Both the position numbers and the translations under genes were made by a program. Positions 32,360 to 35,017 of a DNA stretch of 64,000 bases are shown piece by piece (position 1 is the stretch's first letter; each line of letters begins with the position of its first letter). Below the pieces are notes generated by a model, which saw nothing but the letters and a program-made list of their open reading frames with translations, did not search any database and was not told where the DNA came from. The stretch comes from Methanolobus psychrophilus R15 (GTDB taxonomy: Archaea > Halobacteriota > Methanosarcinia > Methanosarcinales > Methanosarcinaceae): positions 248,001 to 312,000 of the forward strand of contig CP003083.1 in the NCBI GenBank assembly GCA_000306725.1, read 5' to 3'.

Positions 32360-33169
32360 ATGAGAAATGAAACAATAGTTTTTTTGGTTCTGATGTCCGT
32401 ATTCTTAGCTATTGGATGTACCGCTGCACAGGATGAAGACGAGCCAGGCATTGACAGTCCGGAAGTGCCGCCTGCTGCTCCTGATCCTGTGCAGGCTGAC
32501 CTCCCCGGGCCGGAAGGCAGTGAGGTATATAATTACATAACTGAAGAGAACAACTACCGGGACTGGGATATATGGCCTTTGAAAGATGAAGTGTATTCAA
32601 GCGTCAGTATTCATGGCCCGCTGTTAACTACATACGTATCAGAGAGTGCAGTACCTGCCATCCAGAACCGGGCAGGCACCTTGCCCTACGAGAGCATGGT
32701 AGTGAGGGAAAGTTATGACGCTGATCGCCAGCTCAGAGAAATAGGTGTCCGGTATAAGGTGGAAGGTTATGACCCTGACCATAACGATTGGTTCTGGGCT
32801 GCTTACACTCCCGAAGGAGAAGTTATAGTCGAGGGAAGGGTGGAGTCATGCCAGAGCTGCCATTCGGTTGAGGCGCGTAACGACTACATTTATACCGCTT
32901 ATATAACAGGCACTCCTTATCCGGTAACAGATGTGGAAATCAGGGATTTCAGCTTTGACCCGGCCTCGGTCACCATTGCAGTGGGAAATTCAGTTAGATG
33001 GACCAATATGGATTCAGCCGTACATACAATAGATGGTGGAATGTTCAGGTCTGGGGCGCTCGCACAGGGAGAATCCTACAGTTACACATTCACAGAAGCA
33101 GGCACTTATTATTACATGTGTACTGTGCATCCTTACCAGACAACGGGGCAAATCATTGTAACAGGATGA
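32360..33169 (+). CDS. Lipoprotein fusing a cytochrome P460-like haem domain to a cupredoxin
   Basis: This is a 269-residue exported lipoprotein (lipobox AIGC, Cys 20) with an acidic Pro-rich spacer to about residue 52. Residues 55-180 resemble cytochrome P460, with one c-type haem motif CQSCH at 164-168. Residues 190-269 form a cupredoxin domain with copper ligands His 222, Cys 254 and His 257. The axial position that is usually Met is Gln 260 (C-x2-H-x2-Q), as in stellacyanin-like proteins. It would carry one haem and one copper outside the membrane and could move electrons or handle a nitrogen species such as hydroxylamine or NO. ATG 32360 is the start; a second cupredoxin gene follows. 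Confidence 0.8.
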   Translation: MRNETIVFLVLMSVFLAIGCTAAQDEDEPGIDSPEVPPAAPDPVQADLPGPEGSEVYNYITEENNYRDWDIWPLKDEVYSSVSIHGPLLTTYVSESAVPAIQNRAGTLPYESMVVRESYDADRQLREIGVRYKVEGYDPDHNDWFWAAYTPEGEVIVEGRVESCQSCHSVEARNDYIYTAYITGTPYPVTDVEIRDFSFDPASVTIAVGNSVRWTNMDSAVHTIDGGMFRSGALAQGESYSYTFTEAGTYYYMCTVHPYQTTGQIIVTG

Positions 33170-33265
33170 GTCTCTTTGCCATTACTTTTTCTCTGAGGTT
33201 TCCAGGCATCATTACTTCCGGTAATGCTATTAATTATGCTTACTCTATCTTATATGGGGAGAATC

Positions 33266-33619
33266 ATGAGAAGAGTACTTTTTATCTTTACGCTGATCGC
33301 AGCGGTTGCTTTAATCTCCGGATGCACGGATTACCTGTCACCAATGGAGAGCCAGCCGCCTGGAGAAGTTGAAACTACAGAAGTCATTATGCAAAATTAC
33401 CGCTTCCTGCCTCAGGATATCAGGGTTTCTGTTGGAGATACGGTCACCTGGGCAAATGATGATAGAGTAACCCACACTGTGACTGCGGACAATGGTGGCT
33501 TTGATTCAGGTGAGTTAGAGCCAAGTGAGACTTTTAGTTATACCTACGAACAGGAAGGCATCTTTGGCTATTCTTGCACGATACATCCCGGTATGATCGG
33601 TACTGTGACAGTAAAGTGA
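33266..33619 (+). CDS. Cupredoxin lipoprotein
   Basis: This is a 117-residue lipoprotein (signal to ISGC, Cys 20) with a plastocyanin-like cupredoxin domain at residues 38-117. Predicted copper ligands are His 70, Cys 104, His 107 and Met 110 (SCTIHPGM), the full set for a type 1 site. Start ATG 33266 has GGGGAG upstream. It follows the haem-copper lipoprotein by 96 bases on the same strand, so it may exchange electrons with it outside the cell. Confidence 0.85.
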   Translation: MRRVLFIFTLIAAVALISGCTDYLSPMESQPPGEVETTEVIMQNYRFLPQDIRVSVGDTVTWANDDRVTHTVTADNGGFDSGELEPSETFSYTYEQEGIFGYSCTIHPGMIGTVTVK

Positions 33620-33646: not shown

Positions 33647-34345
33647 TTGAAACTTAAGGGCCGGGTAGCTCTTGTGACAGGGGGAGGCAGGGGCATAGGA
33701 AGAGCCACATGCCTCGCGCTGGCAAAGGAAGGTGCAGATATCATTGCAACTTCAAGGAGTCAGGATGAGCTAGAAGCGGTGCGTGAAGAAGTTGAGAGCA
33801 TGGGCAGTAATTCACTGGCCATCCAGGCAGACATCAGCAAGGAGTCGGATGTCATTAGTTTGGTGTCTGAATCAGCTAAACACTTCGGAAGAATAGACAT
33901 CCTTGTGAATAACGCCGGAGTAGCTGTAAGGAAACCCCTGATCGAAACCAGCGCCGGGGAATTCGATAATATAATGGGTGTCAATGTAAGGGGCTTATTC
34001 CTGTGCACGAAGCATACCTTGCCCAATATGCTCAGGGAAGGCCAGGGCAAAGTGATAAACATCTCTTCCGGCGCAGGCAAGACCGGGATTAGAGAACTTT
34101 CAGTATACTCTGCATCAAAGTTTGCAGTCATCGGCCTGACCCAGTCGCTGGCTCAGGAAGTTTCAGGAAAGATTGGAGTATATGCGGTCTGTTCTGGGAG
34201 CGTCGATACAGGTATGTACCGTTCTTTGTATAATGATAAGCCATCCCTCAAACCGGAAGATGTGGCCGCCAAAATCGTGGAGCTGTGTCTTCCGGGATCA
34301 AGGGTTGCTTCAGGCTCCTGTGTTACAATTTATGGCTGTGGTTGA
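33647..34345 (+). CDS. Short-chain dehydrogenase/reductase
   Basis: This is a 232-residue SDR enzyme that uses NAD(P)H to reduce a carbonyl. The nucleotide site is TGGGRGIG near residues 11-18, NNAG is near 88-91, catalytic Ser is in INISSGAG, and YSASK holds the Tyr and Lys. It is most like 3-oxoacyl-ACP reductase (FabG-type), but archaea lack that pathway, so the substrate is open. Translation starts at TTG 33647, preceded by GGGGG. It opens a run of co-directional genes with the phosphoribosyltransferase and PEBP genes. Confidence 0.85.
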   Translation: MKLKGRVALVTGGGRGIGRATCLALAKEGADIIATSRSQDELEAVREEVESMGSNSLAIQADISKESDVISLVSESAKHFGRIDILVNNAGVAVRKPLIETSAGEFDNIMGVNVRGLFLCTKHTLPNMLREGQGKVINISSGAGKTGIRELSVYSASKFAVIGLTQSLAQEVSGKIGVYAVCSGSVDTGMYRSLYNDKPSLKPEDVAAKIVELCLPGSRVASGSCVTIYGCG

Positions 34346-34379
34346 GGAGCAAAGTGATGTTGTCAGTATTCAGGGCGAT

Positions 34380-35017
34380 ATGATGGTCTTCAGAGACAGA
34401 AGGGATGCAGGTGAAAAACTTGCCCCTGTACTGGAAAAGTACGGGGATGAGAATGTACTGGTGCTGGCCATTCCCCGGGGTGGGTGGAAGTTGGATGCGT
34501 GGTGGCAGAACACCTGCATGTGCCTTTTTCATTGTTGATCACAAGAAAGCTGCCCTTTCCCGACAATCCTGAGGCGGGATTCGGAGCTATAGCCGAGGAT
34601 GGCAATGTTTTTATTTTTGAGGATATGGCAATGTGGCTTCCGCAGGAGGAAATTGACCTGATTGTAAATGAGCAGTCAGAGGAGATACGCAGGAGGATAG
34701 AGGTTCTAAGAGGGAGCAGACCTTTGCCTGAAATGGCTGGCAGGACAGTCATACTGGTTGATGATGGTCTTGCCATGGGTTCTACCATGCGCGCTTCTAT
34801 ACTGCTGTGCAAGAAAAGGGGTGCTCGGAAGATTGTAGTCGCTGTGCCTGTAGCATGCAGGGAAGTCGCTGAGGATATCTCCCGGATGGTCGACGAACTC
34901 GTGGTTCTGGAAACCCCTGTGCATTTTATGGCAGTTGCCCAGGTCTATAGTAACTGGTATGATATCTCTGACGATGAGGTATCGTCGATACTGGAACACG
35001 GTTGCACTAAAAGTTAA
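34380..35017 (+). pseudogene. Phosphoribosyltransferase-domain protein with a one-base frameshift
   Basis: The protein is of the COG1926-type phosphoribosyltransferases. The frame from ATG 34380 gives MMVFRDRRDAGEKLAPVLEK and LVLAIPRGG. It then leaves the correct frame at about 34481-34486 (GGTGGGTGG), where one G seems missing. The second frame continues with VEVGCVVAEHLHVPFSLLIT, KLPFPDNPEAGFGAIAED, and the PRPP loop VILVDDGLAMGSTMRAS. Adding one base restores a full-length enzyme of about 212 residues. It is either a recent mutation or a sequencing error; the rest of the gene shows no decay. Confidence 0.75.

Follow-up and report, generated by a model that had tools for sequence, protein, structure and literature searches.

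A predicted surface lipoprotein of Methanolobus psychrophilus that joins a His-capped P460/c'-beta haem domain to a cupredoxin

The window analysed here is a stretch of 64,000 nucleotides of the Methanolobus psychrophilus R15 genome, which is a single contig of 3.07 Mb. Near its middle lie two consecutive genes, ORF1 and ORF2, whose features are collected in Table 1. Residues 65-179 of ORF1 match the Pfam family Cytochrome_P460 (PF16694; 32.7 bits, cut-off 27) and residues 190-267 match Copper-bind (PF00127; 36.6 bits, cut-off 21.2). With a CQSCH motif also present, the first-pass annotation was right to see a c-type P460-like domain and a cupredoxin on one polypeptide. It had also credited both proteins with a lipobox, and this too is borne out: ORF1 has LAIGC20, ORF2 has its cysteine likewise at position 20, and the Gly-Cys pair is kept across the relatives of both. 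ORF2 (PF00127, 37.6 bits) has all four ligands of the classical His-Cys-His-Met cupredoxin that it had been taken to be. Its start is likely to be at 33266 (MRRV...) rather than at 33224, since the orthologues begin with MRR and the lipobox then falls at Cys20. The short-chain dehydrogenase gene that follows is a conserved neighbor in several relatives, and any functional link to the pair is hypothetical. A phosphoribosyltransferase gene at 34377-35017 has its frame broken by a one-base deletion near 34484 relative to loci L003 and L004, and is either a pseudogene or the result of a sequencing error. A viral-contig scan gave no match.

Table 1. Features of the haem-copper locus (positions in the window)
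Feature	Positions	Strand	Basis or detail
ORF1, fused lipoprotein, 269 aa	32360..33169	+	lipobox, P460/c'-beta domain, cupredoxin
Layout of ORF1			signal peptide with lipobox (Cys20); P460/c'-beta at about 47-182; cupredoxin at about 187-269
His85, haem-iron capping position	32612..32614	+	alignment to TtCP-beta Phe29, McCP-beta Phe32, NeP460 Phe41
Arg116, aligned with the cross-linking Lys (NeP460 Lys70)	32705..32707	+	alignment
Gly129 (distal carboxylate position in active P460s) and Arg131	32744..32752	+	alignment
CQSCH haem c attachment motif: Cys164, Cys167, proximal His168	32849..32863	+	invariant in 37 sequences
Type-1 copper ligands of the fused cupredoxin: His222, Cys254, His257, axial Gln260	33023..33139	+	alignment
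ORF2, cupredoxin lipoprotein, 117 aa	33266..33619	+	Cys20 lipobox; His70, Cys104, His107, Met110
Short-chain dehydrogenase (SDR)	33647..34345	+	conserved neighbor in several relatives; any functional link hypothetical

The nearest relatives of ORF1 are Methanolobus proteins of 94, 86 and 74% identity. The fusion is real and not a product of chance, because Cys164, Cys167 and His168 are invariant, the gene is under purifying selection, and the P460 part finds only P460 and c'-beta structures. As a model of the full-length protein had only copper proteins among the PDB matches listed, the haem domain was modeled separately. This model (pLDDT 84, pTM 0.82) matched thirteen PDB chains at E<0.001, every one a cytochrome P460 or c'-beta, the best being TtCP-beta of Thermus (7ead, TM 0.67). 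PDB matches to SAKe designed kelch proteins were discarded; they arose from six repeats of a short YDPDHNDW-like stretch, whose masking made them vanish.

The fold, together with a CXXCH motif near the C-terminus of the domain, places ORF1 in the P460/c'-beta superfamily, and the residues around the predicted haem pocket define its position there. Numbering follows PMC11928373 (that of NeP460 is offset by one residue between papers). Sequence-profile alignments to 7ead, McCP-beta and NeP460 are concordant at the two key positions that they share, His85 and Arg116, and the assignment of Gly129 comes from the 7ead alignment alone. Position 116, that of the cross-link, corresponds to Phe61 in 7ead, Phe61 in McCP-beta and Lys70 in NeP460; the carboxylate position is Gly82 in 7ead and Glu96 in NeP460. 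In an alignment of 45 sequences the capping residue is His in 44 of the subfamily members, where the characterized relatives have Phe or Arg. In the same alignment the nine intact Methanolobus fusions, and they alone, have Arg at the cross-link position, which is Lys in all 36 other relatives; the same nine have Arg at position 131, where 35 of the 36 others have Met. These nine form one clade (support 100/99), and hence the replacements reflect one fixed event that has been retained since, rather than nine independent ones.

Judged by its sequence, the haem domain of ORF1 is not a functional cytochrome P460, for both the cross-linking lysine and the distal carboxylate are missing. On the same grounds alone it shares with cytochrome c'-beta the absence of a haem-lysine cross-link, but it has His85 where the c'-beta proteins have a Phe or Arg cap. 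It therefore seems highly improbable that ORF1 is a genuine P460 that oxidizes hydroxylamine to NO or N2O and gives the electrons to copper. Such a role would suit the common superfamily and the CXXCH motif, and unfused relatives and the fusion at L052 do retain the lysine; however, Arg and Gly occupy the two positions in ORF1 and all nine intact Methanolobus fusions, and the characterized enzymes require both lysine and carboxylate (PMC11928373). Laboratory variants are instructive here: the K70R mutant of NeP460 is cross-link deficient and inactive toward hydroxylamine, K70A gains a peroxidase-like activity, and NeCP-beta, whose cap is polar (Arg) and whose haem lacks the cross-link, reacts with H2O2 to give a ferryl species (PMC11928373). 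Since Arg116 is the equivalent of the inactive K70R, ORF1 should not be a hydroxylamine oxidase, and the removal of hydroxylamine suggested in the first-pass annotation is unlikely. It is more likely that the protein passes electrons to peroxide, to NO or to another surface carrier.

The first-pass annotation had made its proposal depend on genes for haem c maturation, and a complete archaeal-type set is present. The host genome has ccmC, ccmB, ccmE and a split ccmF (F1 and F2), and an ABC ATPase adjoining ccmB and ccmC is consistent with ccmA; a streamlined CcmABCEF system suffices in Methanosarcina acetivorans (PMC9084895). Of the 112 family genomes, 83 have CcmE, among them all 34 with P460, and the 29 without CcmE all lack P460 (hypergeometric 4e-6, uncorrected for relatedness). 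Loading of ORF1 with haem is thus plausible. At another locus (L087:5522-6610) an old-yellow-enzyme-type gene lies beside ccmABC and resembles the flavin oxidoreductase gene that adjoins unfused P460 genes at L008, L058 and L059. The host genome also has hybrid-cluster (prismane) genes, which are unlinked to the ORF1-ORF2 pair.

In the fused cupredoxin the ligands His222, Cys254 and His257 are invariant (10 fusions), and the axial residue is not. Among the nine intact Methanolobus fusions it is Gln in seven, Lys in one (L005) and His in one (L044), whereas the fusion from another genus (L052) has the Met of a type-1 copper site and a ligand loop one residue shorter. A broken copy in genome G055 apparently has Arg; this gene (L007:6003-6840) carries three single-base indels and is either decayed or misassembled. 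In the Methanolobus fusions, then, loss of the axial Met and loss of the lysine go together, and Gln itself is not conserved. The His-Cys-His-Gln site described previously does exist in ORF1, but the conserved Met-to-Gln switch that it seemed to represent does not; with the axial position varying in this way, the lowered copper potential deduced from that switch is plausible only. Cupredoxin-fold proteins lacking the copper Cys were also seen in Methanolobus (L089, L111, L112 and L113).

Among the structural matches listed for the copper domain, which include the amicyanin mutants M98Q and M98K, the best is the Nitrosopumilus purple cupredoxin 5fc9. This brings in a second possible role, that of binding, transporting or sensing NO in the manner of cytochrome c'-beta, with the cupredoxin serving either as redox partner or as an NO-oxidizing copper site like that of Nmar1307; the Nitrosopumilus purple cupredoxin is reported to oxidize NO to nitrite (PMC6790972). 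The haem domain would be suitable, in that c'-beta is its closest structure and it lacks the cross-link lysine and the distal carboxylate as c'-beta does (PMC11928373). A His cap and two additional arginines are, however, unlike the hydrophobic c'-beta pocket, and no NO-handling gene was found linked to the pair in the neighborhoods compared, so that we regard this role as decidedly unlikely.

How widespread is this arrangement? A profile search of the 112 family genomes placed PF16694 in 34, and among 393 genomes of the phylum P460 turned up only in the order of the window. The first-pass annotation had proposed a search for conserved gene pairs, and this recovered the fusion in 11 genomes, ten of them Methanolobus (one copy broken) and one of another genus (G030). 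An ORF2 orthologue adjoins the fusion in six loci (the window, L003, L004, L005, L007 and L052) and lies about 1 kb away in L050; at L044, L045, L046 and L048 none is found beside it. In two fusion-bearing genomes an unfused P460 gene is followed directly by an ORF2-orthologous cupredoxin gene (L020, and L062 with a 4-base overlap). The fused cupredoxin falls outside the ORF2 group in the tree, and therefore its origin as a recent duplicate of the neighboring gene, which we had considered, is unsupported. Both domains of ORF1 and ORF2 are under purifying selection, with dN of 0.03-0.27 against dS of 0.2-3.5. The Methanolobus and L052 fusions may have a single origin, which an AU test did not reject (p 0.15).

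Similar associations recur elsewhere in the order. In a second family (L074-L076) the fusion partner of a Lys-bearing P460 domain is a cupredoxin-fold domain devoid of copper ligands. In a third (L077, with partial L078 and L079) a P460 domain of another type is joined to a cupredoxin that retains His-Cys-His; from their place in the order both families are likely to be of ANME type. The occurrence of fusions or pairs in several lineages means that the pairing of haem and copper was made or kept several times, and this repetition argues for a physical coupling. The second domain may also be structural, as the ligand-less versions suggest, and the loss of the ligands in another family indicates that not all such proteins need copper. 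Two loci of the second family (L074:3626-5072 and L076:4274-5736) have a further ligand-less cupredoxin-fold lipoprotein adjoining the fusion. At L077:3532-4437, where the fusion is differently built, both domains score above their Pfam cut-offs. The unfused P460 genes of five Methanolobus genomes (L009, L056, L057, L060 and L061) lie beside a metal ABC transporter and genes which, from their sequence, we take to be ycaO and tfuA.

The initial impression that such proteins are unusual in methanogens does not hold, since both c-type cytochromes and cupredoxins occur widely in this order. Of 238 genomes of the class, 185 match the profile, mostly through the cupredoxin part, and cupredoxins have also been described in this class (PMC6315138, PMC10470525). 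In a third possibility, ORF1 would be an extracellular electron relay: with His85 as an iron ligand the haem would be bis-His and low-spin, and together with the two coppers it would form a surface wire to minerals or partner cells. The lipoprotein anchor, the two to three electron-transfer centers and the near-invariant His85 at the position above the iron all fit such a wire. Expression data fit as well: Methanosarcina barkeri up-regulates cupredoxins when it engages in direct interspecies electron transfer (PMC6315138), and Geobacter alters the expression of its monoheme P460 cytochromes in co-cultures of this kind (PMC10470525, PMC10989804). Yet the known potentials of cupredoxins, +150 to +680 mV, lie far above the -165 mV of methanophenazine (PMC6315138), one haem by itself would hardly serve as a conduit to minerals, and the neighborhoods compared showed no multihaem gene next to the pair. 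On balance we consider a relay possible but doubtful.

Our tentative preference is for a haem/type-1-copper protein at the cell surface in which copper would supply the electrons and a small oxidant, either peroxide or NO, would be reduced. From the domains, ligand motifs and anchor signals we infer that ORF1 would be a lipid-anchored redox protein with two loaded metal centers in one chain. A c-type haem would be held covalently in the P460/c'-beta fold without a lysine cross-link; on its distal face His85 would stand above the iron, and Arg116 would take the place of the cross-link lysine in the Methanolobus fusions. Haem peroxidases classically pair a distal His with an Arg close by. The haem would bind and reduce H2O2 or NO, taking its electrons from the fused copper domain, which in turn would be recharged by the ORF2 cupredoxin or by another surface carrier. 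Reduction of an oxidant accords with the fold matches, with Arg116, Gly129 and His85 at the pocket positions, with the chemistry of the NeP460 mutants and NeCP-beta, with the ccm genes, and with the recurrent association of P460 and cupredoxin. Against it, His85 could itself bind the iron and so close the pocket, relatives in another family have a cupredoxin-fold part without copper ligands, and the neighbors of the pair (the SDR, the phosphoribosyltransferase and a PEBP-like protein) include no conserved gene linked to a substrate.

A more specific and, in our view, unlikely version of the oxidant-reducing role would make ORF1 a His-capped P460-fold haem-copper peroxidase or NO reductase of strict anaerobes. 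The change from Lys to Arg would block the peroxide-driven cross-link and open the way to peroxidase chemistry, the copper would be retuned by loss of the axial Met, and in the unfused relatives that keep the lysine, peroxide could switch the haem through the cross-link. If ORF1 does handle peroxide or NO, it would belong to an extracytoplasmic line of defense of methanogens.

The family of ORF1 extends the P460/c'-beta superfamily by a branch that is archaeal and His-capped, and provides a natural counterpart of the laboratory mutant K70R. With a P460-fold haem and copper in one chain, it also makes the role of the "halfway house" members of the superfamily testable in a single two-domain protein. 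The presence of a P460 domain in archaea is not new, since some archaeal monohaem cytochromes have been modeled on P460 (Kletzin et al. 2015, PMC4429474). A 2025 review of the superfamily lists Phe or Arg caps only and leaves archaea unmentioned (PMC11928373), and a literature search for P460-plastocyanin fusions found no such protein described. As far as the literature examined shows, what is new is the capping by His, the natural occurrence of a K70R equivalent and the fusion to a copper domain.

With the cytochromes c'-beta (TtCP-beta 7ead, Methylococcus McCP-beta 6hih and Nitrosomonas NeCP-beta 7s5o) ORF1 has in common the fold, the CXXCH haem site and the absence of both cross-link lysine and distal carboxylate; it differs in its His rather than Phe or Arg cap, its Arg at the lysine position, its fused cupredoxin, its lipoprotein nature and its archaeal origin. 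The cytochromes P460 (Nitrosomonas europaea 2je2/2je3 and Methylococcus 6hiu) share the fold and align through the lysine motif VKE, but ORF1 has Arg for Lys, Gly for Glu/Asp, and the His cap. Its copper domain has the cupredoxin fold and the His-Cys-His ligands of amicyanin, plastocyanin and the Nitrosopumilus cupredoxins 5fc9 and 9cck, from which it departs by Gln for the axial Met (Lys or His in orthologues) and a ligand loop one residue longer; its score against the NCBIfam amicyanin model is 40.3, where the cut-off is 110.2. Finally, the surface cupredoxins of Methanosarcina and Methanothrix that have been linked to interspecies electron transfer (PMC6315138, PMC10470525) are also membrane or surface copper proteins, from the same class, but none of them is reported to carry a haem domain.
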